Origin: Vibrio alfacsensis | GTDB taxonomy: Bacteria > Pseudomonadota > Gammaproteobacteria > Enterobacterales > Vibrionaceae | NCBI RefSeq assembly: GCF_003544875.1 | Contig: NZ_CP032093.1 | Location: 2,728,001-2,792,000, forward strand | Direction of reading: 5' to 3' | DNA length: 64,000 nt | In this document: positions 17,849 to 39,431 of the stretch, piece after piece | Layout of the letters: each line of letters opens with the position of its first letter | Position numbering within the stretch: position 1 is the stretch's first letter | The notes under the pieces: generated by a model | Told to the model about the DNA's origin: nothing | The model's database searches: none | What the model saw: the letters and a program-made list of their open reading frames with translations, nothing else | Translations under genes and position numbers: made by a program

Positions 17849-17874
17849 AAAAAAACCGAGGCAAAACCTCGGTT
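17849..17874 (-). terminator. Displaced glmS terminator left of the Tn7-like element
   Basis: On the minus strand this reads as a stem AACCGAGG/CCTCGGTT (17854-17861 and 17867-17874) with a TTTTG loop, followed by T7. Joining the left flank to the right flank at the duplicated TCGGT rebuilds the sequence directly downstream of the glmS stop, so this is the original glmS terminator, now 21.5 kb away. The last stem base is supplied by the first T of the element. It is now placed to end the transcript of the Crp-like gene at 18053-18691. Confidence 0.8.
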
Positions 17875-18010
17875 GTCGGTAGACATTAAAGTTTGATCGA
17901 TTTAGGAGCGAAAGTACTTCATTTTGAGCATATTCGCTTTTATAGTTTGATCATTCTTCTAACTCCTGAACTTGGTTTTCAGTCATTTGAGAACAATAAA
18001 GTTTGATCAA
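17874..18010 (+). repeat. Left end of the Tn7-like element: three spaced TnsB-type repeats
   Basis: Three copies of the motif (ACAAT)AAAGTTTGATC: 17882-17899 (GACATTAAAGTTTGATCG), about 17938-17953 (core AGTTTGATCA) and 17993-18010 (ACAATAAAGTTTGATCAA). They are about 55 bp apart, like the spaced transposase-binding sites of Tn7L. All point the same way. Confidence 0.88.
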
Positions 18011-18052
18011 ATAGAATTGAATACTTACCAAGCGCCTGTTTACCAATGAGTG

Positions 18053-18691
18053 CTATATACTATCCATTGATAATTTCAATTTAAACTTTAGAAATGCATC
18101 CCTATTTTTCACATGGAGTTTTCTACTTGAATCATCTAGAGCTCCACATTTTTTGAGCTCCTTGCAAAAGCGAATCACAGTCGTGGTATCAGTGCCACTG
18201 TATTCACCCACTTCACGATACGTCCACTGGTACTCTGGGTGGTTATCAAACAAGTAGCCAATAGCATCCATAATTCGCACTTTGGCGCTGTTCGACGTCA
18301 TTTGAGTTAAACGACTTTCGGCCTCTCCTAGTTCATAGCACACGCCTCGAACCAAAAAACCCGACAACTCTTTCGAGATCGCCTCTACCTCGTGAAAAGT
18401 ATCCAATTGGATATGTGAAAGATGGCTAGGCAGCATAGCGCGCGCCGTCGAGCGATAATCTTGCTCTGTAAACAGTGAACGGTAGCCAAAGAAATAACCC
18501 GGCCCATAAATACGCAGCAAACTCTCTTTACCTGATTCGGTGGTTTGATAGATGCCGATCAGACCAGATTTTACATAGTAGAAACCTTTTGTTGGGTTCC
18601 CACCTCGGTACACCACTTGGTGCTTAGTGAACTCTTGCTCTTTTGTGTATGCAGACACTTCGCGCAACACCTGATCAATCATACTTTTCAT
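18053..18691 (-). CDS. Crp/Fnr-family transcriptional regulator
   Basis: 212-residue regulator with an N-terminal cyclic-nucleotide-binding-like beta barrel (about residues 15-120; GFYYVKSGLIGIY, YGPGYFFGYRSLF) and a C-terminal winged helix (about 150-205; WTYREVGEYSGTDTTTVIRFCKEL). The Arg/Ser phosphate cassette of Crp is not preserved and there is no Fnr cysteine cluster, so the ligand is unknown. The start at 18691 is preceded by AAAGG. It is divergent from the TauE-GH127 operon with 124 bp between, so it may control that operon. It is the first cargo gene inside the left end and has no terminator of its own except the displaced glmS one. Confidence 0.85.
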   Translation of the reverse strand: MKSMIDQVLREVSAYTKEQEFTKHQVVYRGGNPTKGFYYVKSGLIGIYQTTESGKESLLRIYGPGYFFGYRSLFTEQDYRSTARAMLPSHLSHIQLDTFHEVEAISKELSGFLVRGVCYELGEAESRLTQMTSNSAKVRIMDAIGYLFDNHPEYQWTYREVGEYSGTDTTTVIRFCKELKKCGALDDSSRKLHVKNRDAFLKFKLKLSMDSI

Positions 18692-18815
18692 CTACCTTTC
18701 GCCAACGTGTAACTGAGTTTAACAGGTTTTAATCTGCCATTTATGATCCCGACTATAAAACCTTACGGGGGGTCAAAATTACACTTAAGTCAATCTCATT
18801 ATTTGGCAATTTTTG

Positions 18816-19643
18816 ATGTTAACTGAACTCCCTCTTGTGTACGAAATTCTCACCAGCAGCAACATTTTAGTGAAGCTTGGACTAGGCTTTACGTTTGGTC
18901 TTTGTCTTGGTCTCACTGGCGTGGGAGGTGGCGTTTTACTTATTCCACTGCTGCAATTTGTGCTAGGCATGCACACGGTATTGGCGGTTGGAACAGCAAG
19001 TATTATCGCGTCACTGGTAAAAGTTAGCGCCGCCGCCACTCATGTCAAACAGCGCAACGTAGAGTGGCGACAGGTAAGCCTTATGTTCATGGGTGCGCTA
19101 CCACTTACACTTTTAAGCACTCAGCTTATCGTGGCGCTTAATAAAGTCCCAGCTTACCAAGTCGCGCTCAATCAATTTGTTCAAGCTCTCATCGTTTTGG
19201 TCATGATTGCCTCACTCGTGCTAGTCATCCGAAAATACAAAGCGCAAGACAATAATGTCGCTAGCGCCGAAGCCGTAGCACCCAGAAAACGGACCTCTCT
19301 GCTGTCTGGCATGTTTTGTGGTTCACTGCTTGGTTCCACTGGCGTTGGTGGTGGGGTCATTTTACTTCCGCTACTCAACTCGGTCATCGGCATCAACATC
19401 AAACGTGCCGTTGGCTCTTCTGTTGTGCTCTCTTTGATGCTCTCTGCAATCACAGCTTGGAGTTATACCAATAACGGCCAAGGTGACCTTACGACCGCAC
19501 TAATTTTAGTGACGGGCGCGGTCGCAAGTATCCCTCTTACCAGCTATTTGATGAAGCGCATCAGCGATAAGAGCGTATATCGCATCACCATTGGTGTAAT
19601 AGCGCTTAGCCTAATTATAACCATTGCAACTGAGGTTCTATAG
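18816..19643 (+). CDS. Sulfite exporter TauE/SafE family transporter
   Basis: 275-residue membrane protein of the TauE/SafE family. It has two repeats, each opening with a Gly-rich motif (GLTGVGGGVLLIPLLQ near residue 35; GSTGVGGGVILLPLLN near 170), and about eight hydrophobic segments. Family members export sulfite, sulfoacetate or related anions. Its stop codon touches the GH127 start with no gap, so the two are co-translated. Because a sulfatase is also in the cargo, export of a sulfur anion is a reasonable guess, not a demonstrated role. The start is ATG 18816; a TTG directly before is the alternative. Confidence 0.83.
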   Translation: MLTELPLVYEILTSSNILVKLGLGFTFGLCLGLTGVGGGVLLIPLLQFVLGMHTVLAVGTASIIASLVKVSAAATHVKQRNVEWRQVSLMFMGALPLTLLSTQLIVALNKVPAYQVALNQFVQALIVLVMIASLVLVIRKYKAQDNNVASAEAVAPRKRTSLLSGMFCGSLLGSTGVGGGVILLPLLNSVIGINIKRAVGSSVVLSLMLSAITAWSYTNNGQGDLTTALILVTGAVASIPLTSYLMKRISDKSVYRITIGVIALSLIITIATEVL

Positions 19644-21512
19644 ATGCAACGTACTCTACACTCACCACTTTCAGGCTCAATTGTGCCAACAGGGTGGATA
19701 AAAAAACAATTAGAATTTGATTTAAACCAGGGCTTTGTTGGCGCGCTAGACGCGTTAGTTCCCGATCTGATCCTCGACGATGATATCTACGACAAACATC
19801 GTTTAACCTCTGCAGACAAAGCGAAAGATGTTGGCGCCGTCGCGCAAGATGCCGATTGGGAAGTTCAGTACCTTTGGTGGAATTCGGAAACACAATCAAA
19901 CTGGTGGGATGGCTATGTTCGTCACGCACTGTTAGCAGGTAATATCGAGCAGCAGCAAAAAGTAGAAGACTACATTGAAGCGGTACTTGCTAGCCAAGAA
20001 GAAGATGGTTACCTTGGTATTTATGCGCCTGACTTAAGATACCAAGCCACTGGCGAAAATGGTGAGCTTTGGGCGCAAGCTTCTCTACTTCGAGTGCTAC
20101 TGGGCTACTACGAACACACCAAACGCCAAGATGTGTTGGATGCTGTCATTCGTTCGGTTAAGCTCACTATGGATACCTGGCCAATTGGACCTAGCCAACC
20201 GTTCAACGTCAAAGATCCCTATGCAGGGGTTGGCCATGGCCTTGTCTACACCGACGTACTAGACAGATTGTATGATTATACAAAGGACAGAGGCTATCTC
20301 GACTATGCTAACTTCCTCTATCTCGATTATTCCCGCTACGAGCTTTGTGACAACGATATCCAATGGCCAAAGCTATTAGATGAAAGCTATCGTTTTCAAG
20401 GTCATGCGGTTCACACTTGGGAACACCTTCGCCCTCTGGTTGTTTCGTGTTATGCATCTCAATGTTCCTTGTTACGCGAAGGTTTAGATGCGTTTTTAAA
20501 GCGCCTGCCTAATTACTTAACACCGTCTGGTGCGCCGATTGGCGATGAGTTCATACTTGGAAAATATGTAGATTCAACCAAAGTAGGTTACGAATACTGC
20601 TCTTTGCAAGAGTGGCTAGATTCATTGATTACCTTAACCAAAAATACGGGCGACCTAGCTTGGTTAGATAAAGTAGAGAACGTATTCTACAACGCCGCTC
20701 TTGGCGCTCGACACCCCGATGGAAAAGGCATTGCCTATCTGAAAACAGATAACTCCTATTCAATGACTGGCGATGCTGGTTGCCATGAGTATGGCGACAG
20801 TGTTCATGAGGTACAAACACGCTATAAATACTCACCTACCCACCAAGAGGCCGCTGTATGTTGCGTACCAAATGCCGGCCGAATTACACCGTATTTCGTT
20901 AAATCCATGTGGATGGAAAATGAAGCAGGTGTCGTAAAAGCACTTTATGGCCCTAGCCTATTCCAGACTACGATATCAGACACAAAGGTCGAGTTTGAAG
21001 AAGTGTCATCGTACCCATTAGAGCTAGGTTCAACCATTTATGTTCGCAGCGAAAAACAGGTTGAGTTTACCCTAACCCTTCGTATCCCAGCATGGGTTGA
21101 TTCTGTGTCCATCAATGGGAAGTCGACCTCATTCTCTAATGGCACACTAGAAATTACGCAAGAGTGGTGTGAAACAACATTGGACATTCAGTTTTCAACT
21201 ACGCCTAAATCGCACCAAGATGAGCAAGGGGAGCGATACTTCACTTATGGCCCAGTGCTGTATGCGCTGCCAATTGAAGCCGAGCAAGAGATAGAAAGAG
21301 AGTTTCTCGGCGGCCAGTTTGCAGACCGCAAGTACAAACCAGAAAATGAGTACACTCCACTTACCCTAAATCGCAAACTTGAGCCTGTCCTCAATGAAGA
21401 AAAACCAGTACCTCTAAACGGTCATAAGGTGCCGAGTTTAAATGTTGGCAAGCTCAATTTGAGACCTATTGCGGAGACGATTCTAAGGCAAGTGACTTTC
21501 GTCGAACACTAA
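19644..21512 (+). CDS. Glycoside hydrolase family 127-like (beta-L-arabinofuranosidase, DUF1680)
   Basis: 622-residue cytoplasmic enzyme with no signal peptide. It is an (alpha/alpha)6-barrel hydrolase: WWDGYVRHALLAGN near residue 88, LGYYEHTKRQDVLD near 153, YEYCSLQEWLDSL near 315. The Cys-Cys pair in EAAVCCVPNAGR (about residue 407) matches the zinc-bound catalytic cysteine of the HypBA1 type, with another Cys in GDAGCHEYG. GH127 members release beta-L-arabinofuranose; the wider DUF1680 group (GH146 and others) has other substrates. It directly abuts the TauE-family gene and ends at a terminator. Confidence 0.85.
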   Translation: MQRTLHSPLSGSIVPTGWIKKQLEFDLNQGFVGALDALVPDLILDDDIYDKHRLTSADKAKDVGAVAQDADWEVQYLWWNSETQSNWWDGYVRHALLAGNIEQQQKVEDYIEAVLASQEEDGYLGIYAPDLRYQATGENGELWAQASLLRVLLGYYEHTKRQDVLDAVIRSVKLTMDTWPIGPSQPFNVKDPYAGVGHGLVYTDVLDRLYDYTKDRGYLDYANFLYLDYSRYELCDNDIQWPKLLDESYRFQGHAVHTWEHLRPLVVSCYASQCSLLREGLDAFLKRLPNYLTPSGAPIGDEFILGKYVDSTKVGYEYCSLQEWLDSLITLTKNTGDLAWLDKVENVFYNAALGARHPDGKGIAYLKTDNSYSMTGDAGCHEYGDSVHEVQTRYKYSPTHQEAAVCCVPNAGRITPYFVKSMWMENEAGVVKALYGPSLFQTTISDTKVEFEEVSSYPLELGSTIYVRSEKQVEFTLTLRIPAWVDSVSINGKSTSFSNGTLEITQEWCETTLDIQFSTTPKSHQDEQGERYFTYGPVLYALPIEAEQEIEREFLGGQFADRKYKPENEYTPLTLNRKLEPVLNEEKPVPLNGHKVPSLNVGKLNLRPIAETILRQVTFVEH

Positions 21513-21568
21513 ACTACTGCCAATAAACTATTGGAAGTTAGTTCTCTGGTAGTTTAGAAAAACAAAAC

Positions 21569-21621: not shown

Positions 21622-24600
21622 TTAGGTTGTTATTCGGAGCGTCTTTACCTCAAACGGCGTAAACTCAAGTTCGAGCTTGCCTTCACGAGCGCCAATAAAG
21701 ACATCTGACTCTTCAATCATGTTGACTTCAGCGACTTCATTGCCAAAGTAGCTAAGGTCCACGGATGCACGTTGGTTTTTCCCGTAAGTTTCAAATAGTC
21801 GAACAACAACGCCGTTTCCATCTTCCGCAAGCTTTAGGGTTTCAATCACCACAGCTGTATTATCACAGCTCACCACGGAATCAATGGGTTTGATCTCACC
21901 TTGCTGAACGGCAATAGGTGAAACCTGCAGTTCCCTCAAAGCATAGCCCTGTTCCACAACGCCACCTTCTCGGTAATCTCCTGCATGGGTAGCGATGAAA
22001 TAACTAAAGCTATGCTCACCAATATCACCGAAATTTTTCGCAGTGTAATCGGCGTCATCAGAATGGCCAAACTCAGAGCCTGGTTTCTTCTGGGAACGGA
22101 GCATAGTTATCTCAAGCTCCTGATCTTTCACGCGATAACCATACTTAGCGTCCGCCATGAGAGCGATTCCTTGTTGGCCGTTCGTTACATCAACCCAGCG
22201 GTGGGCAGGGATCTCGTCTTTGGCCGCAGCAAAACTGTCGTAGCTGTGGGTTGGTCTGTCTATCACGCCAAACTGAATGTTACATTGGGCATCTTCAGCT
22301 TGGACAGTCACTGGGAAGTTAGCTTTTAAAGAAATATCTTGGTCTTGCCAGTTAATTCTGGTGCTAAACTCAACTCGAGCACTGCCCTCAACGATACAAA
22401 TCTCTTGAGTCAGCGTTGAATTCTTATAGCGGTAACATTGCTTAACCACGGCCAGAGGTCCATCAACATAAGCACTGCTGTCGAACAACTCTAAGGTAGT
22501 TGCCTCGGAAGTTCGATAATCATCGGCAAAGTCCCATGCCGCATACTCGGTCGCTCGCTCTTTGTATGCGGTTAATAGGTTCCCCCTTGGCTGCGAAACA
22601 AACTCATAATTGAGGACTTTATTGAACAGCGAGGTGATCTGGCCCTGAGTGTTAAACTCAACTTTCACTTGGGTATTTTCAAGTTTCAGAGGCTCAGCGA
22701 ACGGTGCGTTAAACGGCGTCGCATTCGCCTCAACAACGCGATAACTAAACGCAGGTATGCTGACCTTCTGCCAAACATTCTTCACCTTCAACCACTCATT
22801 ACGGGCAAACGGAGCAAGGTTGTAAACAATGTGTGGTATAGCGAACATTGATGTATTGAGACCTCTTTCAAACTTGTACTTTAGCTTTGAAATGAGCTGT
22901 TCAGTTATAGCCACTAATTTCCCGTAGTCGGCTTCAGCTTCCTGATAAACTCGCACAATGGATGATCCCGGCAAAATGTCATGAAACTGCAGGGTCAATG
23001 TCTCTTTCCAAAGCCTATCTAACTCGGCTTTATAGGTGTTATCGCCTGTCACTGCCATCAAAGCCTCTAACTGGCCAAGCAGATATTCCATATCTCGGTT
23101 GCCCTGTTTGGTTCGCGACTCTGTTGTAAAACATCCCTGATGCGCCTCGAAATAGAGCTCACCATTCATCACCGGCAACTGTTCTCGATACTTTTCCACC
23201 CTTGTAAAAAATGAATCAACCCGTCCGTTTTGAGCTTTAGGCAAGCCCTCTAAGTCTTGAATACGGTGGAATCGCTCAATGTGTTCTTCTGCGGGACCAC
23301 CGCCGCCATCGCCTACGCCATAAACCATGAGAGCCTCAGGGCAAATATGCTTCTCTTTATAATTTGCTTCTATCTTCAGTGAAGAGGTCGCACGCGCACG
23401 GCTATCATAGGTGTCTTCAGGGAAGTTATGCATGATCACTTCAGAGCCGTCTAGCCCTTGCCAGCGAAACGTGTGATGAGGGAAAGGGTTAATTTTGTTC
23501 TGAGATAACTTTTGCGATGCAATGTAGTCAACACCGGATTTGGCTAGTATCTGGGGCAATGCTGCGGTGAAACCGAATACATCGGGTTCCCACAAATAAT
23601 TCACGCTTTGGCCGAAGTGCGCTTGAGTGAACTGGCGACCATACATGATCTGGCGAATCAACGACTCCCCACTGACAAGGTTTAGGTCTGACTCAACCCA
23701 AAAACAGCCTTGAAGCTCAAATCGCCCCTCTTTAACGTGATCTTGAATGCGTGAGAACAACTGGGGATAGTCCTGCTTCACCCATTCAAACAGTTGATAC
23801 TGACTGGCACCAAACAAGTAGTCTTGATACTTATCGAGGTTTGCTACCGCAGTAGTGAAAGTACGCATTGCTTTACGTTTGCCTTCACGAAGTGGCCACA
23901 TCCAAGCTAGATCTAGGTGTGCGTGCCCGGTCGCCGTAATATCCACGCTACCTAAATTTGATGGTACATCATAGACTTCCGATAAGATAGCTCGACACTG
24001 TGCTATCTCATCTGCAGTATAGTGAACCAGAGTCTGCTCTACACGGGCCATCAGTTGGATAAATAACGAAAAACGCGCTTCGTTGCTTTCAAGCTTCAGC
24101 TCTTGCCTTGCTTGCACTCCTTTGGGCTGATGAGAAACAAAGCCTTCGTCGCCATTAATCCAATCAATAAGCACCTCTAGGTCATAATACAAACCTTTCA
24201 GTGCAGTATTGCAACTGCCCAAATGGGCATCAGTAATTACCCCGCCGTTTTGCACGTAGCCAAAAAGGTCGTTACAGCCAGCGTCTACCCAAACTTCGAA
24301 CTGCTCACCCGGCTGGCTATTGAGGTCAATCACCCACTTACCCGGTTTATCCGGCGGAATTCCGTATGAAGATATCTTGTTGGTAATACCACGCACTGGG
24401 TTAGCTTGGCTATCGAGCACTAAACCCTCACCGCCCACATCCACCATTAGAACAAGGTCATGTTCATGTTTCGGTACAGTTCCAGATAACCTGAACCAAG
24501 CACAATCAAACAAGCCTCCCCATGAATCACCGATATTAAATCGACGGTAGTCGCCAGAGTCTCTATTTGCAAAAGAGCACGGCTCTTTAGTGAGCCACCC

Positions 24601-24690
24601 TTCTATCTTAAGTTCAGTCAATGGTTGATAGATTCGATGCCCAATTTGGTTAAGTAAAGCCGTGATGTTGTCAGGTACATAAATGGCCAT
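21622..24690 (-). CDS. Alpha-mannosidase, glycoside hydrolase family 38
   Basis: 1,022 residues with no signal peptide, so probably cytoplasmic. The zinc-binding motif HAHLDLAWMWPLREGKRK lies near residue 258; the nucleophile Asp is in WEPDVFGF near 368; YGVGDGGGGP and QFHDILPGSSI are further GH38 signatures. The long C-terminal beta-sandwich is typical of bacterial and class II mannosidases. The start is MAIYVPDN at 24690, with GAGGA eight bases upstream; a GTG at 24705 would overlap the SemiSWEET stop. It is the last gene of the trmB-esterase-SemiSWEET-GH38 operon. Confidence 0.92.
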   Translation of the reverse strand: MAIYVPDNITALLNQIGHRIYQPLTELKIEGWLTKEPCSFANRDSGDYRRFNIGDSWGGLFDCAWFRLSGTVPKHEHDLVLMVDVGGEGLVLDSQANPVRGITNKISSYGIPPDKPGKWVIDLNSQPGEQFEVWVDAGCNDLFGYVQNGGVITDAHLGSCNTALKGLYYDLEVLIDWINGDEGFVSHQPKGVQARQELKLESNEARFSLFIQLMARVEQTLVHYTADEIAQCRAILSEVYDVPSNLGSVDITATGHAHLDLAWMWPLREGKRKAMRTFTTAVANLDKYQDYLFGASQYQLFEWVKQDYPQLFSRIQDHVKEGRFELQGCFWVESDLNLVSGESLIRQIMYGRQFTQAHFGQSVNYLWEPDVFGFTAALPQILAKSGVDYIASQKLSQNKINPFPHHTFRWQGLDGSEVIMHNFPEDTYDSRARATSSLKIEANYKEKHICPEALMVYGVGDGGGGPAEEHIERFHRIQDLEGLPKAQNGRVDSFFTRVEKYREQLPVMNGELYFEAHQGCFTTESRTKQGNRDMEYLLGQLEALMAVTGDNTYKAELDRLWKETLTLQFHDILPGSSIVRVYQEAEADYGKLVAITEQLISKLKYKFERGLNTSMFAIPHIVYNLAPFARNEWLKVKNVWQKVSIPAFSYRVVEANATPFNAPFAEPLKLENTQVKVEFNTQGQITSLFNKVLNYEFVSQPRGNLLTAYKERATEYAAWDFADDYRTSEATTLELFDSSAYVDGPLAVVKQCYRYKNSTLTQEICIVEGSARVEFSTRINWQDQDISLKANFPVTVQAEDAQCNIQFGVIDRPTHSYDSFAAAKDEIPAHRWVDVTNGQQGIALMADAKYGYRVKDQELEITMLRSQKKPGSEFGHSDDADYTAKNFGDIGEHSFSYFIATHAGDYREGGVVEQGYALRELQVSPIAVQQGEIKPIDSVVSCDNTAVVIETLKLAEDGNGVVVRLFETYGKNQRASVDLSYFGNEVAEVNMIEESDVFIGAREGKLELEFTPFEVKTLRITT

Positions 24691-24694
24691 AGGG

Positions 24695-24982
24695 TCAGTC
24701 CTCACACTCTGTTAATTTTCTTCTTCTAAGAGTGTGGCGGATTTTGATCCCCCAGATGATGCTCGCCAGCAGAAGAGTAATAGCGTTAGCGAGCATCACA
24801 GGTAAATCCGCCACAATAAAACCATAAGTCATCCATAAGAACACCCCCAAAATGAAAATGGTGTACATGCCAAGGGATATGGATGAGGTATCTTTCGTTT
24901 TTAGAATATGCATAACTTGAGGAATAAAAGCGCAGGTGGTGCAAGTCGCGGCAATATATCCAAGGATTGTTTCATTAATCAC
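24695..24982 (-). CDS. SemiSWEET family sugar transporter
   Basis: 95-residue protein with three transmembrane helices and the PQ-loop (CAFIPQVMHILKTKDTSSIS), followed by TIFILGVFLWMTYGF. SemiSWEETs dimerise to form a facilitative sugar carrier in the inner membrane. It sits four bases upstream of the alpha-mannosidase start and downstream of the esterase, so it probably moves a mono- or disaccharide of this pathway, in or out. Confidence 0.85.
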   Translation of the reverse strand: MINETILGYIAATCTTCAFIPQVMHILKTKDTSSISLGMYTIFILGVFLWMTYGFIVADLPVMLANAITLLLASIIWGIKIRHTLRRRKLTECED

Positions 24983-25062: not shown

Positions 25063-25884
25063 TTAGCTGAAGAAGAAGTTCAGCATTTCCGGGTAGCGTT
25101 TGGCCCAAGCAGACTCGGTATGCTCAGCGCCTTGGTCAACAATATATTTAAGCGAAACATTGTCTTTTCCAATCAGCAATTGCTCGGCTTGATTCGCATC
25201 ATCTAAATATATTTTCTCAAAACCAATACCACGACCGCTGCTCTCTTGGGTTCCAATATCCATATAAACCTGAATAGGCACGTCAAGCTGCTGATTTTGA
25301 ATATAAGCAAACATCTCTGGTTTGTTAAACCAGAATGCAGGAGAGAAAACACCCGCTTTAGCAAAGACATCTGGTCGCAGTAAAGCCCCAAATAGGCTAA
25401 TAAAACCACCCATTGAACTACCGGCAATCACGGTGTTGTTGCGATCCGATAGGGTTCTGTAATTTTGGTCAATGTAAGGTTTCAAAGACTCAACAATAAA
25501 GCGGATGTATCGCTCGCCGTCACCACCGGATTGGTAAACCGCAGGATCCCAGTCTGATAACACAAAGTCTTGATCCATTTTCCACGGCGAGTACTCATAC
25601 ATGCGGCACAAGCCATCAAACTCGGAACCATTGTCGATTCCGACAACGATGACGCCATCTCGCTCAGCGAAGAACTCATCCACATTGGTCGGAATTTCCC
25701 AAGAGGAACCACCAAAACTCACTGAATTATCAAACAGATTTTGCCCATCATGCATGTAAATCACAGGATAAGAATGTTGCGACTCTTGGTAGCCTTTCGG
25801 CAGATACACTCGTACGGTTCGCTTACGTTCTAACTGGGGAATATCAAAGCCTTCAATTACATGATAACGATCAAAATCCAACAT
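25063..25884 (-). CDS. Alpha/beta hydrolase-fold esterase (esterase D/Fes type)
   Basis: 273-residue putative serine esterase: VRVYLPKGYQ, VIYMHDGQNLFDN, nucleophile elbow GSSMGGFIS near residue 155, and a C-terminal catalytic His in GAEHTESAW. This is the PF00756 group, which includes feruloyl and acetyl esterases acting on glycans. With no signal peptide it would act on imported oligosaccharides. It lies one base after trmB and 80 bp before the SemiSWEET gene, in the same operon. Confidence 0.8.
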   Translation of the reverse strand: MLDFDRYHVIEGFDIPQLERKRTVRVYLPKGYQESQHSYPVIYMHDGQNLFDNSVSFGGSSWEIPTNVDEFFAERDGVIVVGIDNGSEFDGLCRMYEYSPWKMDQDFVLSDWDPAVYQSGGDGERYIRFIVESLKPYIDQNYRTLSDRNNTVIAGSSMGGFISLFGALLRPDVFAKAGVFSPAFWFNKPEMFAYIQNQQLDVPIQVYMDIGTQESSGRGIGFEKIYLDDANQAEQLLIGKDNVSLKYIVDQGAEHTESAWAKRYPEMLNFFFS

Positions 25885-25885: not shown

Positions 25886-26719
25886 CTACGCCTTTTTGTT
25901 TTTAGTCAGCTTTTGGTCATCCATTACCATGTCGTTGGTTTGCTCATGAATAGTATTGATACGGATAGCTTCAAGCTGAGAGTTCTTATGAAATTCGGTG
26001 AGATAAATATCATTATGAATATGCTCAGCGGTCATTTTGACCATTAAGCGATTATTGGTATAAAGCCCTTTGGTTTCATCACGGTGCGAGAAAATCAGCG
26101 CCTGAGCCATATCCACCACCAGCATAAATCGGTGCGATGGGTATAGGGTTTCTAGCTCGTCACTGCGAGAGAAGAACTCCATTTTTTCGTGCGGCTTTTC
26201 AATGCGGTTGAAAGAGAATCCAATAATGCGCACACCGCGTTCAATGGCGTTGCAAATCTCGTCATGGTATTCATCAAGGCGGAAGTCGGCATTCATGTAA
26301 ATCTCGACTTCGGCTTGATTGATCAGCTCTTTCGCTTTTTGAACTGAGTTCTCATAGCCCGTGAGGTTGTAGACGAATTCTTTCTCTTCTTGCAGCATCA
26401 TCTTCGACAGCTCTTTCTTCAAGATGCCGATGTTCTCAACCGTCTTTTTCTCGATCTGATTAAAGATCAGCTCTGGTGATTTCGCTTCGTACTCTTTGGT
26501 GTCTCCGTCTGAAAGGAAGATGTACCCGTTGTTGTACAGGTTATCGATCGACGAGTAGACAGACGAGCGAGATAAAGAGATCTCTTTAGCGATTTTGTAA
26601 CCGCTCGCTCGACCATTTTTTAGCAGGTTAATGTACACAAGAGCATCTGTTTTGGTGAACCCAAAATCCATTAACTTAGTCACTAGATCCGACACAGGTT
26701 GTCCTTTAAAACTATTCAC
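25886..26719 (-). CDS. TrmB-family sugar-responsive transcriptional regulator
   Basis: 277 residues with an N-terminal TrmB winged helix (about 10-80; GFTKTDALVYINLLKNGRASGYKIAKEISLSRSSVYSSI shape, wing near NGYIFLS), a helical linker (about 85-120, KKTVENIGILKKELSKM) and a C-terminal sensor domain of the phospholipase D-like kind. TrmB proteins repress or activate sugar importer genes depending on maltose, trehalose or other ligands. It heads the operon trmB-esterase-SemiSWEET-GH38 and is the best candidate to bind the TAGTAGTA inverted repeats seen at the importer, porin and sulfatase operons. Confidence 0.87.
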   Translation of the reverse strand: MNSFKGQPVSDLVTKLMDFGFTKTDALVYINLLKNGRASGYKIAKEISLSRSSVYSSIDNLYNNGYIFLSDGDTKEYEAKSPELIFNQIEKKTVENIGILKKELSKMMLQEEKEFVYNLTGYENSVQKAKELINQAEVEIYMNADFRLDEYHDEICNAIERGVRIIGFSFNRIEKPHEKMEFFSRSDELETLYPSHRFMLVVDMAQALIFSHRDETKGLYTNNRLMVKMTAEHIHNDIYLTEFHKNSQLEAIRINTIHEQTNDMVMDDQKLTKNKKA

Positions 26720-28719: not shown

Positions 28720-29559
28720 TTATTCTTTTACAGCGCCACTGACTAGGCCCTTAGCAATGTGTTTCTGAGTTGCTACAAAAAGTAATGTGATAGGTACCGC
28801 GACCAATAGTGCACCTGCGGTAAATAGAGTGAAGTTCTCGGCTGAGTTGGAACGAATCCAACTGAAAATACCGATCGCTAATGTCATTTTCTCTTCACTG
28901 CGTAAGATCAAGGTTGGCAAAATGAAATCCATCCAAGGTGCAGTGAAAGACATCAGTGCCACAAATACCAATATTGGTTTTGCCAATGGCAAGATGATTT
29001 CGAAGAAAATGGTTAAGTGACCTGCGCCGTCAATCTTCGCCGCTTCATCCAGTGAAGTTGGAATAGCATCGAAGTAGCCTTTCACTAACCAAGACAAGAA
29101 TGGCAGGCTACCTGTTACGTAGACCAACAACAGGCCCCAGTAGCTATCTATCAGATTCAACTTGGAGAGCAGAACATAGATAGCAGTCATGGATAGAAAT
29201 GCTGGAAACATCTGTAATACTAGAATGCTCAGCATGACATTACGCTTGCCACGAAAACGGTAGCGAGAGAACGTATACGCTGTGATGGTAACCAGAACCA
29301 GCGAGATAAGCATGTTTGCTACCGCTAGATAAAACGTATTCTTATACCATTGGATATAAGGAGTATCGTTTAACAGCGTACGGTAGTGGTCCAGAGTAAA
29401 CTCGAATCCAGTAAAGGTTGAGCTAAATAGGTTGGTACCGGGCTTAAATGAAGCCAAAATCGTCCAAATCACTGGAGCCAACACCGCTAACGCATTAAGC
29501 GACAAGAAGATATAGACGAATACGGTACTAATTTTTAGAGGTTTCTTAGTCGTCGACAT
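28720..29559 (-). CDS. malG: Maltose/oligosaccharide ABC transporter permease, MalG family
   Basis: 279 residues with six transmembrane segments. The EAA loop is visible (SLDEAAKIDGAGHLTIFFEIILPLAKP), the contact site for the ATPase. It is two bases downstream of the MalF-like gene. The second permease half of a carbohydrate importer (CUT1 family); the symbol reflects family, not proven maltose specificity. Confidence 0.88.
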   Translation of the reverse strand: MSTTKKPLKISTVFVYIFLSLNALAVLAPVIWTILASFKPGTNLFSSTFTGFEFTLDHYRTLLNDTPYIQWYKNTFYLAVANMLISLVLVTITAYTFSRYRFRGKRNVMLSILVLQMFPAFLSMTAIYVLLSKLNLIDSYWGLLLVYVTGSLPFLSWLVKGYFDAIPTSLDEAAKIDGAGHLTIFFEIILPLAKPILVFVALMSFTAPWMDFILPTLILRSEEKMTLAIGIFSWIRSNSAENFTLFTAGALLVAVPITLLFVATQKHIAKGLVSGAVKE

Positions 29560-32504: not shown

Positions 32505-33530
32505 ATGAACAAGTCAATCTTGTCGGTACTTATCGCTAACGCGTTCATCGCACCTCATGCACTCGCTGATATCTACTCCACGGATCCACAATCAGCAGAG
32601 CAAGACTTTTTCTCATCATTAATCGATGGTACAGGGGGAAATGTCGGGGCTTTTTACGAAAGAGAGGATAAAAAATCTTACGCAGCTGATGGCTCACTGA
32701 TCGGCAACAACACGTACACTGAGAATAGCTTAATCACCGGCTATCTATACAACAACGAACTGCCACTGTCGCTCAACTACTCATATAAGCAGATCACTGA
32801 TATTTGGGACCCAGCAGCGGAAGGGGCAAACTCTTCAGTAAGAACCAGTGACCAACTTGCGACAAACCTGAGGTATCGAAGAGCGCTTGGTAACGGGTTT
32901 AATACTGGCCTTGGTTGGCAAACTGAGATTGAGCGCGGTGACCATAGACAAGGCTCACAGGTCGGTGATATCACCAAGGACCAACATCAGTTTTATACCT
33001 TCCTTGGGTACTGGAACAACGATTGGAAAGGTGGTTTCTATGCTCAGGCTTCCTATGGCCTGCAAAATACGACTGATGACCTCAATACCAGTGTATGGGG
33101 TGACAAAGATCAGACATATTACAAACTGATGATTAAGCCTTATAAGAATTTTGGCAAAGTATTCGCTGGTGTTGAGATTTATTATGAAGACAAAGACACC
33201 GATAGCGGCGTATCCGGTGAGCAATTAGAGAACTTTAAAGAACTGTATATTGAACCAGAAATTGCATACAGCTTTGATACGGGCGGTCGAGTGTTCATTA
33301 AACAACGCTATACCGAAAAAACGACCAAAAACTTAGCTAATGGCAATGAGTATTTTGGTACCGTCAACAAAACAACTTTAGGTTACCAGCACAACTTCGA
33401 AGATTGGATGGTGAGCGCTGAGGTTGAACTGTTCAACGAAGATAAACAAGAAGACACGGGCAGCGGCAAAATTGACTCAGGTAACGAAGAGTACAATAAG
33501 CTAAAACTGATGGCTCTGTATCGCTTCTAA
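32505..33530 (+). CDS. Outer-membrane oligosaccharide porin (beta barrel)
   Basis: 341 residues with a signal peptide (MNKSILSVLIANAFIAPHALA-D). The mature part alternates hydrophobic and polar residues in repeated aromatic strands (ITGYLYNNELPLSLNYSYKQ; QFYTFLGYWNNDWKGGFYAQ) and ends in LMALYRF with a C-terminal Phe, the assembly signal of outer-membrane barrels. It is acidic in its loops. The length and context resemble OmpG/KdgM-type sugar porins, but I cannot assign it firmly to either. It is the first gene of porin-LpxD-like-MalK. Confidence 0.75.
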   Translation: MNKSILSVLIANAFIAPHALADIYSTDPQSAEQDFFSSLIDGTGGNVGAFYEREDKKSYAADGSLIGNNTYTENSLITGYLYNNELPLSLNYSYKQITDIWDPAAEGANSSVRTSDQLATNLRYRRALGNGFNTGLGWQTEIERGDHRQGSQVGDITKDQHQFYTFLGYWNNDWKGGFYAQASYGLQNTTDDLNTSVWGDKDQTYYKLMIKPYKNFGKVFAGVEIYYEDKDTDSGVSGEQLENFKELYIEPEIAYSFDTGGRVFIKQRYTEKTTKNLANGNEYFGTVNKTTLGYQHNFEDWMVSAEVELFNEDKQEDTGSGKIDSGNEEYNKLKLMALYRF

Positions 33531-33548: not shown

Positions 33549-34562
33549 ATGATAAAGGTCACTGACATCGCCACGCTATTAAATGGTGTTGTAAAAGGTA
33601 ATCCTGAATTGAGCATCGATAGTATTGTCGAACTCACTCACCCTAGCCCTGGAGGTTTGGCGATTGTTCGTCAGCCCAGTGACCTTAAAAAAATTAAGCG
33701 ATGCTTGGCAGACGTCATTATTGGACCAGAATCCATTTGCCAAGACACATCCGCGACAGTCATCATCATAGACCGACTGAAAGCAGAGGATATAAACGCT
33801 TTACTGACCTGGTACAAAGTTCAGCGTTATCGCTTAGATGACCAAGAAAACACGTCTGAGATAGCGGATGTTTACATTGGCAAACACACAACGATTGGCG
33901 ATAACTGTCACTTCAAGCCGGGTGTCAAAATCATGAATGGTGTGACCATTGGTAACAATGTAGCTATCCACGCCAACACCGTTATCAAAGAAGGCACTGT
34001 AATTGGCGACAATGTCACCATCGATTCCAACTGCTCTATTGGCAACTACAGCTTTGAATATCTCAATGATGAAAAGGGCCAGTATGTTCGCTTAGAGAGC
34101 GTAGGACGAGTGATCATTGAAAACAACGTCGAAATAGGCTGCAACAATGCCATCGACAGAGGCACATTAGGCGATACGGTGATCGGGTTGGGAACTAAAC
34201 TCGACAATTTGATTCAAATTGGCCACGACGTAAAAATCGGCCAAAACTGCCTACTGGTTTCCCAAGTTGGTATTGCCGGCTGGACGATCATTGAAGACAA
34301 CGTATTAATCCACGGACAAGTGGGAATCACTGGCGGCGTGACCATAGGTCAAAACAGCCGTATCAAAGCACAAGCTGGGGTCACTCGTTCTTGCCCAGCA
34401 AACAGTCACCTTTCTGGCTACCCAGCCAGAGAGACTAACGAATACTTAAAAACGCTAGCAGCACTAAACAACTTGGTCAAATCACGTAAAAAACAGCCAG
34501 CAGCATCACAACAAGCAGTCGACTCTCAACTGAGTTGGCTACGCAGAATTTTTAATCTTTAA
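33549..34562 (+). CDS. LpxD-like hexapeptide acyltransferase (paralog in the sugar operon)
   Basis: 337 residues. The N-terminal LpxD-type domain (about 1-100) is followed by left-handed beta-helix hexapeptide repeats (about 105-290; IGDNCHFKPGVKIMNGVTIGNN). The region GRVIIENNVEIGCNNAIDRG, then LIQIGHDVKIGQN with the catalytic-type His, and SGYPARETNEYLKTLAALNNL match LpxD closely. LpxD adds 3-hydroxyacyl chains to the glucosamine amino group in lipid A synthesis; the housekeeping lpxD normally sits with bamA-lpxA, so this is probably a paralog. It is 18 bp after the porin gene and 19 bp before the ATPase gene. Its role here is unknown. Confidence 0.78.
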   Translation: MIKVTDIATLLNGVVKGNPELSIDSIVELTHPSPGGLAIVRQPSDLKKIKRCLADVIIGPESICQDTSATVIIIDRLKAEDINALLTWYKVQRYRLDDQENTSEIADVYIGKHTTIGDNCHFKPGVKIMNGVTIGNNVAIHANTVIKEGTVIGDNVTIDSNCSIGNYSFEYLNDEKGQYVRLESVGRVIIENNVEIGCNNAIDRGTLGDTVIGLGTKLDNLIQIGHDVKIGQNCLLVSQVGIAGWTIIEDNVLIHGQVGITGGVTIGQNSRIKAQAGVTRSCPANSHLSGYPARETNEYLKTLAALNNLVKSRKKQPAASQQAVDSQLSWLRRIFNL

Positions 34563-34581: not shown

Positions 34582-35703
34582 ATGGCAACGGTAAGCCTAC
34601 GTAAAGTAGAAAAGCAATACGAAAACGGTTTTAAAGCTGTGCATGGTATCGATCTTGATATCCATGACGGTGAATTCATGGTCTTTGTTGGGCCATCAGG
34701 TTGTGCCAAATCGACCACACTACGCATGGTTGCAGGCCTAGAGGAAATATCCGGTGGTGAAATCCGTATCGGCGAGCGCGTGGTTAACGACCTTGCGCCT
34801 AAAGATCGTGGGATCGCCATGGTGTTCCAAAACTACGCGCTCTATCCGCATAAGACCGTTTTCGACAACATGGCTTTCGGCTTAAAAATGCAGGGGAAAC
34901 CCAAAGAAGAGATCAAAGAGCGTGTCACTGAAGCTGCGGAAAAACTCGAAATCACTGATCTTCTTTACCGCAAGCCTAAAGAGATGTCCGGTGGTCAAAG
35001 ACAGCGTGTGGCAGTAGGTCGAGCCATTGTACGTAAGCCGGAAGTGTTCTTATTCGATGAACCGCTTTCAAACTTAGACGCCAAGCTGCGTGTATCAATG
35101 CGCGTAAAAATTGCCCAGCTTCACCAATCATTGAAAGAAGAAGGCAACCCGGCGACCATGATTTACGTCACCCACGACCAAACTGAAGCTCTGACGCTGG
35201 GCGATCGCATTTGCGTACTCAACAAAGGCGAAATCATGCAAGTCGACTCTCCAGCTAACTTGTATAACTACCCTGCCAACAAATTTGTTGCAGGCTTTAT
35301 TGGCTCACCTGCGATGAATCTGGTCGACACGGCTTTACGTGAAGAAGATGGCAACTACTTCATTGAGCTTGCACCTGGCTCACGCGTAGTAATTCCAACA
35401 CACAAAACGACTAAGTTTAGTCAGCATATTGATACCAAAGTGTATTTTGGTATTCGCCCTGAACATATTTCAATTTCTGAAACTGCCGATGCGTTGAACA
35501 CCATTGAAGGCAAGCTTTCTGTCGTTGAAAACATGGGTAACGAAAAATACCTACATTTCCGAGTTGGTGGCAATCTGATCATCGCTCGCGTGTCGTGTAT
35601 CGATGTTACTACAGCGGATATTGGTAGAAGATTCTACTTCAATCTCGACACTAGCTTTTGCCATATCTTTGATGGCAAAACAGAAGAAAACATCTCTTTA
35701 TAG
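34582..35703 (+). CDS. malK: Sugar ABC transporter ATP-binding protein, MalK/UgpC family
   Basis: 373-residue ATPase expected to serve the MalEFG-type importer encoded divergently. Motifs in order: Walker [10 protein letters not shown] (37-45), Q-loop [11 protein letters not shown], signature MSGGQRQR, Walker [14 protein letters not shown]-loop VTHDQTEA, and a C-terminal MalK/TOBE regulatory domain ([18 protein letters not shown]). Walker A has Ala42 where Gly is usual (GCGKS). It follows the LpxD-like gene by 19 bp and ends at a strong terminator. Confidence 0.92.
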
Positions 35704-35750: not shown

Positions 35751-35838
35751 AAATAACAGACAGCGTTATGATCATCGCCATAAAATCAGCCTCACACTTT
35801 GCTGGTCTCTCGCTAGGACAATGCACCAAAATACAATA

Positions 35839-35861: not shown

Positions 35862-35873
35862 TTGAGAATAACA

Positions 35874-37241
35874 ATGAAGAACAAAAAACCAAACGTGATT
35901 TTTATTGTTGCTGACCAGTGGTCAACTGCAATGGCAGACGGCTCAGGTAAAAACGAATTCGTCCAAACCCCGGGGTTAGATACGCTTGCCGAAGAAGGCA
36001 AACGATTTGAACAAAGTTACAGCTCTTACCCACTTTGCTGCCCCGCGCGCGCAAGTATGTTTACTGGCTTAATGCCGCACAATCACGGTTTGATCGACAA
36101 TGAAGAAATCATCGAACACCAAACGGGTGAGTTTCCAACTACCGAAAACTTCCTAGCCAGTGCAAAAACCATGGGTGAAGCGTTTAAGGAAGCCGGTTAC
36201 GACACAGGTTTCTTTGGTAAAGAGCATGCGGCAGGCTATGGTTGGAAAGGCATCGATGAACAAGGCAGTATGAGCTACACGGGTGGCGGTTATCTTGCGG
36301 AAGGTTCGGTATACGATACCGTCTTTGCCAAAGACGCAATCGACTTCATTAAGAAAGATCGTGAGAACCCCTTCTATCTGACTCTGTCATTCATCAACCC
36401 ACATGACATTTGTAAGACTTTAGGTGGCCCTGTCGGTGGTAAAAACATCTCTGATGCGATCTTCTTTTGCCGTAACGATGACGAAAAATACCTACGCGAT
36501 GAAGAGCGCAAAGGCCTACCGGAAAACTTCTCTGACAAGTACATTGAAGGCATGATCAAACATGAAGATTACATGTACAAAGAGCTCGATGATCTGGATG
36601 AAAATTACTGGAAGCAGTTCATCTCAACATACGGTTTACTGATTGAAAAAACCGATTGGCTCGTCGCGTTAGTCCTTGAGCAACTAAAACAGCAAGGCAT
36701 TGATGATAATACCATTGTGGTGTTTACATCCGATCATGGTGAGATGATGGGCAGCCACCGTTTGATCGCCAAGACCGTTTTTTATGAAGAGTCCGCTAAA
36801 ACACCAATGATTATTCGCTATCCACAAGCGATCCAAGCTGGTGAAGTGGATAACCAAAACATGGTTTCGACCGTTGACATCATGCCAACGCTGCTTGACC
36901 TGTGTGATATTGATGTTCCAGAAAACATCGATGGTAAAAGCTTTAAACAGAGCTGTTTAAACGAAAATTCCGTTACGCACAAAGAAGTATTCTGTGAGAA
37001 CTACTTCTCGCGCATGTTCCGATTTGATCAATACAAGTACGTTGAGAGCTTGGTCTATGACAAGCATTACAAGATCCTCATCGACCTTGAGAAAGATCCA
37101 AAAGAGACAGAGAACTTGTTCAATACCAAAGGGTACGAAGAGATCTCGTCCTTTGCCGAGCGACGGATGAAAGAGTGGCTCGAAAAAGAGAACATTGGCT
37201 TAGAATTCGATGCCAAAAATCTGAAGAAGAAAATCGCTTAA
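35874..37241 (+). CDS. Sulfatase, Cys-type (type I, formylglycine-dependent)
   Basis: 455 residues. The sulfatase signature is C55-C-P-A-R59 followed by ASMFTGLMPHNHG; C55 is the residue converted to formylglycine. Metal-site motifs are N-terminal NVIFIVADQWS and SDHGEMMGSH. It starts MKNKKPN and has no signal peptide, so it acts in the cytoplasm, unlike most polysaccharide sulfatases; that implies the sulfated sugar is imported first. A TTG at 35862 is in frame but lies next to the operator; ATG 35874 is preferred. The maturase gene follows in the same direction. Confidence 0.92.
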   Translation: MKNKKPNVIFIVADQWSTAMADGSGKNEFVQTPGLDTLAEEGKRFEQSYSSYPLCCPARASMFTGLMPHNHGLIDNEEIIEHQTGEFPTTENFLASAKTMGEAFKEAGYDTGFFGKEHAAGYGWKGIDEQGSMSYTGGGYLAEGSVYDTVFAKDAIDFIKKDRENPFYLTLSFINPHDICKTLGGPVGGKNISDAIFFCRNDDEKYLRDEERKGLPENFSDKYIEGMIKHEDYMYKELDDLDENYWKQFISTYGLLIEKTDWLVALVLEQLKQQGIDDNTIVVFTSDHGEMMGSHRLIAKTVFYEESAKTPMIIRYPQAIQAGEVDNQNMVSTVDIMPTLLDLCDIDVPENIDGKSFKQSCLNENSVTHKEVFCENYFSRMFRFDQYKYVESLVYDKHYKILIDLEKDPKETENLFNTKGYEEISSFAERRMKEWLEKENIGLEFDAKNLKKKIA

Positions 37242-37248
37242 ACTACAC

Positions 37249-37273
37249 GTTCCCGCCCAGTGCGGGAACTTTT
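37249..37273 (+). terminator. Hairpin between sulfatase and maturase genes
   Basis: A stem GTTCCCGC/GCGGGAAC (37249-37256/37262-37269) followed by only TTTT. It may lower transcription into the maturase gene, or stabilise the sulfatase mRNA end. The maturase ribosome site lies in the 3' arm, so pairing could also limit its translation. Confidence 0.5.
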
Positions 37274-37276
37274 CGT

Positions 37277-38440
37277 ATGGGTGCAGACATGTCACAATCT
37301 CCTTTTCACATCATGACCAAACCAGTCAGCCATCAATGTAATCTCAAGTGCGACTACTGCTTTTACCTTGAGAAAGATGCCTTCTATCCGCAGCAAAGCC
37401 GAATGAGTATGGAGATGCTTGAAGAGTATGTCAGAACTTATATCGAAAGCTCTCCTCAACAGCATGTGGATTTTGCTTGGCAAGGTGGTGAACCGACACT
37501 GGCTGGTCTCGACTTTTACAAGTCAGCAGTCGAGTTTCAAAACAAGTACAGCGCAGGTAAAAGGATCACCAATAGTTTCCAAACCAACGGCATAGCCATC
37601 AACCATCAATGGGCAGAATTTTTTGCTCAGCATCAGTTCCTTATTGGACTATCGGTGGATGGTGACGCGTCCATCCATGACAAATATCGTATTTCAACCA
37701 ATGGCAAGCCGACATTCGAGCGAGTAAAGCACGTCATCGGCCTACTCTTAGAACACAAGGTTGAGTTTAACACTTTAACAGTGGTCAATGACGCAAATTG
37801 GGACAAAGGAAAACAGGTCTACCAAACTTTAAAGTCTCTAGGCTCAACCCATATGCAGTTCATTCCTGTGGTTGAACAAGATGCCCTACAGAAAGAGAGA
37901 TTTGACCCAACCCTCACCCAAGAGGTCACGCCATTCTCGGTCCCTAAATCTGGATATGGCACCTTCATGACCGATGTCTTTGATGAGTGGGTCAAACAAG
38001 ATCTAGGTAAGATACACATTCAAGCATTTGAAATGCTACTGGCGCAACATTTAGGTTATCCAGCAGGACTGTGCATTTTTAGTGAGAACTGCGGTGATAA
38101 TTTGGTACTTGAGGCCAATGGCGATCTCTACTCATGCGATCACTTTGTTTATCCTGAAAACAAGCTGGGTAATATTCATTCTCAGCCTATGTTGGAACTT
38201 GCTCAAAGCAAACAGCAGAAAGCATTTGGTCAAAGTAAATCGGCAACACTTACCGCGCTTTGCCAGAGCTGTGAGTACTTATCGCAATGTCATGGTGGTT
38301 GCCCTAAACAAAGAATTGTTCCTGTAGAAGGGGAAACTCACAGGCAAAATTATCTATGTGAGTCCTACAAGAAACTGTTCTCTCATACGCACAAACCTAT
38401 GGCTTCAATGGCAAAGCAAATAGCATCACGTCGCCACTAG
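37277..38440 (+). CDS. Anaerobic sulfatase-maturating radical SAM enzyme (anSME)
   Basis: 387 residues. The radical SAM cluster motif CNLKCDYCF (C-x3-C-x2-C) lies near residues 20-27, followed by FAWQGGEPTLAGLDFY. The C-terminal SPASM-type cysteines for extra 4Fe-4S clusters are visible (GLCIFSENCGDNL..., YSCDHFVYPE, CQSCEYLSQCHGGCPKQR). Such enzymes oxidise the sulfatase Cys or Ser to formylglycine without oxygen, in the cytoplasm. It lies directly behind the Cys-type sulfatase, its probable client. Starts at 37277 (MGADM) or 37289 (MSQSP) are both possible. Confidence 0.92.
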   Translation: MGADMSQSPFHIMTKPVSHQCNLKCDYCFYLEKDAFYPQQSRMSMEMLEEYVRTYIESSPQQHVDFAWQGGEPTLAGLDFYKSAVEFQNKYSAGKRITNSFQTNGIAINHQWAEFFAQHQFLIGLSVDGDASIHDKYRISTNGKPTFERVKHVIGLLLEHKVEFNTLTVVNDANWDKGKQVYQTLKSLGSTHMQFIPVVEQDALQKERFDPTLTQEVTPFSVPKSGYGTFMTDVFDEWVKQDLGKIHIQAFEMLLAQHLGYPAGLCIFSENCGDNLVLEANGDLYSCDHFVYPENKLGNIHSQPMLELAQSKQQKAFGQSKSATLTALCQSCEYLSQCHGGCPKQRIVPVEGETHRQNYLCESYKKLFSHTHKPMASMAKQIASRRH

Positions 38441-38514
38441 ATTTTATGGCGCAGGCCATAAAGTTCGTCGCAAATTAAGCTTAATAAACTGGACAAAGAG
38501 TCGCCAAGAAAATA

Positions 38515-38537
38515 TAGTAGTACCAAGTGAACGACGC
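38515..38537. promoter_or_regulatory. Degenerate TrmB-type half operator
   Basis: TAGTAGTA at 38515-38522 is exact, but the right arm (AACGACGC at 38530-38537) matches only partly. No gene starts directly downstream; a candidate small transcript does. Confidence 0.4.
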
Positions 38538-38619
38538 TGAGTAAGTCACTGAATTTAAGCAGTTTCATTTACTTATTTCATGTTCTTAACTTTTTGTTAT
38601 TTTGTGTTGAATATCGCTA

Positions 38620-38771
38620 TCCGCTGTCGGTAAGAATAGAAGAATACGTTCTCCTCCGTTCACCTGAAAGGCAGGTTCTTGGCTCCCCCCGAGAACTATC
38701 AGAATCGCAAGCGAAGCGATTGCTAGTACGAAACTTGATCTTTTTCGGAGGCCATTGGCCTCCTTTTTTTT
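38620..38771 (+). ncRNA. Candidate structured small RNA ending in a terminator
   Basis: No convincing reading frame. Successive stems are ACCTG/CAGGT (38662-38676), GTTCT/AGAAC (38675-38696), AATCGC/GCGATT (38703-38721) and GGAGGCC/GGCCTCC (38747-38763), the last followed by T8 (38764-38771). The final hairpin is a good terminator, either for an independent RNA or for the long 3' end of the sulfatase-maturase mRNA. The 5' end is a guess. Confidence 0.4.
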
Positions 38772-39345
38772 AAAAAACTTTTGAATTCGACTTCAGTATC
38801 TATATCGATAAGTGGTTTTATCCACTTCAGGTTCATTTTGAGATCGTTGGAGACTTCTTGATCGGTAAAAATGGGACAGGGTACTTTTACTGCTTCCCAG
38901 TACGCTTTCTCTATTTGAAGCTTTTCGACAATGCGCTTGTCATCAAGCTTTAGAGCTGGCTTTACGGGGATCGCTAACTGGGAGCCATCAGCAAAATCGA
39001 TGATTAAGTCCGTAGTCACTATTTTAAGCTCGCCCTTTTCTTGAGGGTGGCGAATACCTAGTTGGCGGCAAATAATCAAAGAGTCAGCAAGAGGAATAGG
39101 AAACTGCTCTCGAATGTCGATGACCTCTTCACACCAATCGAACACCAAAATGCGGCAAGCTCATTTCCAGAGAATAAGTGATGGACTCGGCCAACAGTGG
39201 CACTTTTAACACGAACGCTTTCGCCAGAACTGCTGAACTCTCCGACTTTAATGAAAGGAACATAGTCCTTCCCCGTCCCTTCTGCCTCGTTTTCATCTAA
39301 ACGCTTTTGGTCTTTCTTATTGAGTGGCTTATCTGCATCTGATAT
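38723..39345 (-). pseudogene. tnsA: Truncated, frameshifted transposase endonuclease subunit TnsA
   Basis: Two frames together give an N-terminal TnsA: GTGKDYVPFIKVGEFSSSG, GRVHHLFSGNELAAF, then after a one-base loss in a T run at about 39148-39152, VFDWCEEVIDIREQFP, LGIRHP, VTTDLIIDF, VKPALKLDDKR and YWEAVKVPCPIFTDQE. The nuclease residues of Tn7 TnsA (E63, D114, K132) have counterparts in NELAAF, TTD and VKP. There is no ATG: a GGAGG is followed by ATA at 39345. Similarity stops near 38771, about two thirds of the way through a 273-residue TnsA; the last codons read backwards through an unrelated terminator. TnsA makes the 5' cuts during Tn7 excision. This copy is dead. Confidence 0.85.
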
Positions 39346-39385
39346 AAAACCTCCGACTAAGTTAAACTTAGCAGGAGGTCAAAAA

Positions 39386-39431
39386 CGATCAATCTTTATT
39401 GTATATGATCAAACTTTATTGTCTTCCGACA
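39386..39431 (-). repeat. Right end of the Tn7-like element: two adjacent TnsB-type repeats
   Basis: On the minus strand, TGTCGGAA then GACAATAAAGTTTGATCA (39423-39406) and ACAATAAAGATTGATCG (39402-39386) lie 20 bp apart, close-packed as in Tn7R and unlike the wide spacing at the left end. The outermost base of the element is 39431. Confidence 0.88.

Follow-up and report, generated by a model that had tools for sequence, protein, structure and literature searches.

Tn7 has spaced repeats at its left end and duplicates 5 bp of its target. It homes behind glmS (PMC2918618), and yhiN is named as a home site of Tn7-like elements in PMC10201428. Metabolic cargo in Tn7-like elements, those of Vibrio included, has already been published (PMC8649781). 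Here we analyze the window, a 64,000-nt stretch of Vibrio alfacsensis DNA (NZ_CP032093.1, 2,728,001-2,792,000) within which all positions are numbered. We conclude with high confidence that a Tn7-family transposon inserted behind glmS in this window, that it is now a dead shell with a catabolic island, and that its right end is the probable replacement for the glmS terminator.

The element comprises 21,558 bp (17874-39431), and its boundaries are exact to the base. The features that define it, given as coordinates, strand and description, are:

17869..17873, no strand: target duplication TCGGT, left copy
17874..18009, plus: Tn7-type left end with three TnsB-like sites, at 17882, 17936 (weak) and 17992
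39386..39431, minus: Tn7-type right end with two packed TnsB-like sites
39432..39436, no strand: target duplication TCGGT, right copy
39457..41289, minus: glmS, the target gene, with its stop codon at 39457-39459

The 25-bp termini, TGTCGGTAGACATTAAAGTTTGATC from 17874 and TGTCGGAAGACAATAAAGTTTGATC (reverse complement) ending at 39431, are identical at 23 of 25 positions. As in Tn7-like elements generally, the termini begin with TGT and are followed by several TnsB-type repeats of ~20 bp, which lie ~55 bp apart on the left, where the middle site (17936) matches at only 13 of 18 positions, and are packed at a spacing of 20 bp on the right, where the window has two repeats versus three in five aligned copies from four genomes. 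The 5-bp TCGGT duplication and an insertion point ~25 bp behind glmS, right end proximal, complete this anatomy. A sequence-only reading of the window had proposed a bounded 21,558-bp Tn7-like element with exact TCGGT flanks, spaced left and close-packed right repeats, and a distance of 25 bp between right end and glmS stop codon, and each of these proposals is upheld.

Taken alone, an isolated 11-mer of the end repeat is not significant in the window (27 matches vs a shuffle mean of 24.1). When the 18-mer GACAATAAAGTTTGATCA is searched across the 4.9-Mb genome, however, its three best matches (0, 1 and 2 mismatches) all fall in the two element ends, and we reject a chance pairing of two TGTCGG words; with up to 3 mismatches allowed, the genome holds 12 matches against 6 with a reversed control. 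A tRNA-targeted island was also rejected, as the single tRNA gene of the window (Met, 17163-17238) is at neither junction, as was a composition jump at the borders, GC content being 0.41-0.48 throughout with a clear step absent. The ends also bear on the proposal that glmS regions with different Tn7-like ends recombined homologously and so exchanged the island, the unit itself never having transposed. Although attTn7 is a hot spot in Vibrio, with three Tn7-like ends stacked there in one genome (G148), the matched ends and exact 5-bp duplication flank precisely the bounded unit, and we consider such an exchange highly improbable.

The native glmS terminator lies in the left flank of the element:

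17854..17874, minus: native glmS terminator (AACCGAGGTTTTGCCTCGGTT followed by a T-run), now 21.5 kb from glmS; a similar uninterrupted stem stands behind glmS in other Vibrio

For comparison we used 196 genomes of the same genus (Vibrio), the window's own included (G-numbers designate these genomes). The joined flanks of the element match across the junction in at least seven of the 196 (G020, G147, G048, G113, G038, G140 and G154), and the glmS terminator is uninterrupted in all four of the sequences inspected from this group, with an ACCGAGG stem common to G020, G147 and G113 and a variant stem in G048. This agrees in part with the earlier prediction of an empty site reading ...CCTCGGTTCTTTG... 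with one TCGGT: the joined flanks match, but the neighbours differ. That no empty site between the window's same two neighbours was found counts against the insertion we propose. rpoD and glmS lie ~1.8 kb apart in four genomes (G139, G076, G145 and G163), and in three relatives that are close by rpoD and glmS (G157, G099 and G149) 9.8-12.5 kb separate the rpoD-adjacent small gene from glmS.

Inside the right end, only a fragment of the transposition machinery is present:

38780..39345, minus: tnsA remnant, residues 1-72 and 65-189 of 273 in two frames, the remainder missing
38747..38763, plus: terminator-like hairpin at the junction of cargo and tnsA (1 found vs 1.3 expected in shuffles of the stretch)

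The fragment matches the Pfam TnsA family, adjoins the right end and reads inward, and the DNA homology of the region to relatives ends at 38785. The sequence-only reading was therefore correct in placing a remnant tnsA beside the right end, residues 1-189 of 273 surviving, split over two frames. The junction stretches match tnsA only, with no match to the tnsB, tnsC or tnsD/tniQ of an autonomous element; Tns families are absent from the 16 cargo proteins scanned, and no convincing match to a tns protein was found in the 344 bp between cargo and tnsA (38441-38784). A TnsB query gave no match in the element's own genome, the same query being positive in 6 of 8 genomes tested, and a TniQ profile likewise gave none there, with weak controls (2 of 14 genomes positive, none over the cut-off). 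The TniQ negative is without a strong positive control and TnsC was not searched genome-wide, both of which weaken the case for a dead shell. Because tnsB, tnsC, tnsD and tnsE are not in the element and its tnsA is a broken fragment, the element is a transposase-less Tn7-family shell, incapable of autonomous movement, in which the left end is followed by the catabolic island, 344 bp of unrecognised origin, the tnsA fragment and the right end. A CRISPR-associated transposon was rejected, Cas proteins being absent among 17 Pfam-scanned proteins (arrays were not specifically searched).

Such a shell might instead be a mobilisable non-autonomous transposon that arrived without tns genes, moved in trans by a Tn7 relative, and not a fossil decayed in place. 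Both ends and a perfect duplication have been kept despite the lost tns genes, and other Vibrio harbour elements of the same family that include TnsA and TnsB, among them a damaged-looking copy on a V. gigantis plasmid; however, no TnsB or TniQ helper was found in the element's own genome, a broken tnsA piece is still found beside the right end, and that end is one TnsB repeat short. On balance we judge arrival in trans unlikely and prefer a fossil that decayed where it stands.

Fuller relatives of the element are found within the genus. A TnsA match is present in 35 of the 196 Vibrio genomes, own included, and in 9 of 369 genomes across the class, again counting its own. In four other Vibrio genomes (G148, G178, G174 and G075) the TnsA copies share 84-95% protein identity with the window over the matched piece, and the DNA of the right end and tnsA is 87-97% identical. 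The same-family TnsB is retained in G148, G174 and G178, and G075 gives only a distant TnsB match. Behind glmS in G148, the element encodes TnsA, TnsB, TniB/AAA and TnsD/TniQ, together with a weak TnsE match below the cut-off; G178 has four TnsA copies of the window's family, and the copy in G174, on the V. gigantis plasmid NZ_AP025494, looks damaged itself. Where genes in or near these elements were scanned, they include restriction-modification (G148), type VI secretion and ketosynthase (G178) genes.

Three further genomes, G056, G090 and G161 (loci L052, L049 and L051), carry a same-family right end and a short tnsA piece 23-25 bp behind glmS, with two right-end repeats in G090 and G161, as in the window, and three in G056. 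All three are genomes without a TnsA match in the 196-genome search, and TnsB was not searched in them. Proteins on the element side include a dihydroxyacetone kinase and a CoA-transferase in G090 and a mannitol-type dehydrogenase and a DctP-type binding protein in G056, the scanned proteins of G161 giving nothing informative; the left ends of these elements were not found in the stretches examined, and their metabolic genes are therefore only putative cargo.

Two side observations concern these relatives. Type VI secretion genes, namely VipB and ImpA, adjoin same-family Tn7 elements in G178 (L026), and reading frames in G174 (L024) share starts with the type VI secretion genes of G178. On contig 85 of G148 (L022, L023 and L050), three Tn7-like right ends follow one another behind glmS, and the 5 bp ATGGG stand before every one of them; tns genes accompany the first and second, and the third has only short tnsA homology.

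Between the TnsB sites and tnsA of the window sits a hairpin followed by T's:

39348..39380, minus: right-end hairpin and T-run, the proposed replacement glmS terminator and tnsA shield

The window hairpin folds at -20.3 kcal/mol (z -2.95), with z values of -4.75 for G148 and -3.43 for plasmid R721. We scored 54 tnsA leaders with one script, L101 and L102 having been excluded beforehand because no start was set, and counted a hairpin where the score was at least 23 with at least 5 T in 8 and 0 of 100 shuffles. Twenty leaders passed. These include all eight Vibrio leaders abutting glmS, none of the 12 abutting a YhiN-like gene, and 11 of the 30 remaining leaders, of which four come from plasmid records and seven from Vibrio at other positions. 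All four plasmid Tn7 relatives have the hairpin, R721 and A. schindleri sharing one leader sequence. Among the leaders that failed are L028 (score 21.3) and the contig-end L109 (26.4, 4 T, 1 of 100 shuffles). In the YhiN class, seven of the 12 neighbouring genes were translated, one of these being Pfam-scanned as HI0933-like, which we take to be YhiN, and the other five were read by eye. The hairpin tracks the element family, and not the site alone, because Vibrio leaders away from glmS also have it. Stem sequences differ between families; within families we found one clear two-sided stem change (L115) and one copy (L221) in which tnsA is truncated and the stem pairs better.

For each of the 12 hairpin leaders tested, the start predicted from the best promoter match lies beyond the 5' arm of the hairpin, and the prediction is similar for the five YhiN-class leaders tested. 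We also surveyed 109 Vibrio glmS loci, of which two lacked a readable stop, leaving 107 readable loci plus the window; the 21 loci bearing right-end-like repeats were assigned by hand. A strong terminator lies within 200 nt of glmS in 14 of these 21, at 84-132 nt and each time after the repeats, and in 79 of the 87 other loci, at a median of 56 nt; single shuffles gave 3 of 108.

We infer the following course of events from the anatomy of the element, which is itself directly observed. A Tn7-family transposon would have taken the glmS-directed (TnsABC+TnsD) route into the glmS terminator, 25 bp behind the gene, producing the TCGGT duplication, and would have carried, or later acquired, the 16-gene catabolic island. 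Transcripts from glmS would then enter the right-end hairpin and T-run and stop there, whereas tnsA transcripts initiated at the predicted promoter would start beyond the 5' arm of the hairpin and so escape termination. In this reading the right-end hairpin probably replaces the displaced glmS terminator and also protects tnsA from read-through.

A broader proposal, which we offer tentatively as a real possibility, is that Tn7-proper elements homing to glmS have, as their right end, a two-way switch that forms part of the tnsA promoter. In this switch the -35 box would lie in or beside the innermost TnsB site, the start point would fall inside the terminator hairpin, and the 3' arm of the hairpin would hold GG-containing sequence immediately upstream of the tnsA start codon. 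Read-through from glmS would end and could not express the transposase, the displaced terminator would be restored, and the element's own promoter would escape; stems of unrelated sequence would occupy the same place, and decayed shells would keep the hairpin as a glmS terminator.

Several points weigh against the terminator and shield reading. The T-run of the window hairpin is short, the hairpin is not called by a stricter terminator scan, and the hairpin criterion was set after the data had been seen. One YhiN-class leader, L121, fails solely on its T-run, with 4 T against the 5 needed. Only one of the four non-Vibrio leaders abutting glmS has the hairpin, which is evidence against the rule being universal, and the seven passing Vibrio leaders that do not abut glmS include window-family copies at other sites and a stacked element. 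Hairpin and promoter are both predictions. Finally, 7 of the 21 right-end-bearing glmS loci are without a strong terminator, when 79 of the 87 other loci have one.

The hairpin may also be read as a promoter palindrome, or as a feature of TnsB assembly, and not as a terminator. In Tn6677, one arm, and only one, of a palindrome located 97-107 bp from the right end influences the orientation of insertion, and the palindrome was suspected to promote tnsABC transcription (PMC10201428); our predicted tnsA promoters overlap the hairpins. Nevertheless, stem and T-run directly precede tnsA in leaders whose stems are unrelated in sequence, the start predicted for the YhiN-class leaders tested is similar although they have no such hairpin, and the hairpin persists where tnsA is truncated. 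We consider the palindrome interpretation doubtful and retain the replacement terminator as the preferred reading of the hairpin.

The cargo consists of 16 genes over ~20 kb, which we assigned to families with Pfam and NCBIfam:

18053..18691, minus: Crp/FNR-like regulator
18813..19643, plus: TauE/SafE sulfite-exporter family protein
19644..21512, plus: GH127-like glycosidase (nearest solved structure a GH127 beta-L-arabinofuranosidase, weak)
21622..24705, minus: GH38 alpha-mannosidase-like
24695..24982, minus: SemiSWEET/PQ-loop sugar transporter
25063..25884, minus: esterase
25886..26719, minus: TrmB-family sugar regulator
26892..28667, minus: GH13 neopullulanase/cyclomaltodextrinase-like (nearest solved structures neopullulanase/maltogenic amylase)
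28720-29559, 29562-30848 and 30867-32093, minus: MalG-, MalF- and MalE-like ABC transporter genes
32505..33530, plus: CymA-like cyclodextrin porin
33549..34562, plus: LpxD-like acyltransferase inside the sugar island (above two NCBIfam LpxD cut-offs)
34582..35703, plus: MalK-like ATPase
35862..37241, plus: sulfatase (nearest solved structures sulfatases)
37175..38440, plus: anaerobic sulfatase-maturing enzyme (anSME; TIGR03942 above cut-off)

The nearest structures to MalE are two receptor fusion constructs, followed by the solute-binding protein 2zyk and maltodextrin-binding proteins. Judged by its genes, the island probably imports a sulfated oligosaccharide via the CymA porin and MalE/F/G/K, and the imported sugar would probably be cut by GH13, GH38, GH127, the esterase and the anSME-matured sulfatase, with the sulfur anion exported by TauE. 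The gene set suggests a substrate containing alpha-glucosyl units, perhaps together with mannosyl or furanosyl ones, and the putative location of the enzymes is drawn from the same source. The island is not a SusC/SusD polysaccharide utilisation locus, a CymA porin and MalEFGK transporter standing in place of the SusC/D pair. Defence cargo was rejected: PADLOC, run on 7 of the 16 cargo proteins, gave only weak CasR/CARF matches to the TrmB-type regulator. The models matched by that regulator name a family largely from archaea. The sequence-only reading had described metabolic cargo rather than the usual resistance or defence genes; the cargo is indeed metabolic, but the contrast was overstated, since such cargo is in print (PMC8649781).

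The catabolic island exists independently of the Tn7 vehicle, because contig 2 of G083 carries all 16 island genes in the same order and has no Tn7 ends nearby, none being found in 38 kb of the island region at up to 6 mismatches. The earlier reading had treated the same cargo with different ends as grounds for abandoning its call; G083 is such a case, and it shows that the island is independent of the vehicle, not that the boundaries are wrong. In Photobacterium rosenbergii (NZ_PYMB01000005), 12 of the 16 genes lie in a 23-kb locus, with MalK cut by the locus edge. GH38 relatives occur in two of the 196 Vibrio genomes, own included (E 1e-50), and at one named locus in the genome collection, in a scan reaching close relatives only. 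No plasmid carrying the cargo was found by megablast among five matching records, one of which, from Vibrio, matches the tnsA end only, and four of which match short pieces of the ABC ATPase gene. As side observations, G083 (L046/L047) has two extra reading frames between GH127 and GH38, by appearance a putative insertion sequence, and an extra 347-aa reading frame between MalK and the sulfatase; the LpxD-like gene is kept within the island in both G083 and P. rosenbergii.

The locus exemplifies, with boundaries exact to the base, how a complete catabolic pathway, which also exists outside Tn7, can be fixed behind glmS in a Tn7 shell, and the hairpin pattern suggests a simple explanation of why an essential gene is not harmed by an insertion into its terminator. 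A 1986 paper by Gay, Tybulewicz and Walker has insertion into the glmS terminator as its title, and reportedly maps the end of the glmS transcript ~127 bp inside Tn7. In the literature searched, a scope that most subscription papers fall outside, we found no description of the hairpin as terminating glmS transcripts or shielding tnsA. The element itself belongs to a known class, and the replacement-terminator and shield reading is the more novel part.

The closest described system is the Tn7 prototype, for which we used the right end from plasmid R721, which we take to carry Tn7 and whose TnsA scores like that of a record annotated as Tn7 TnsA. Like the window, R721 (NC_002525) has packed right-end repeats, a tnsA reading inward at the right end and a hairpin similarly placed before tnsA. 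The TnsA of the window's nearest fuller relative is 38.6% identical to that of R721, and the window differs from the prototype in having lost its tns genes and in carrying catabolic cargo.

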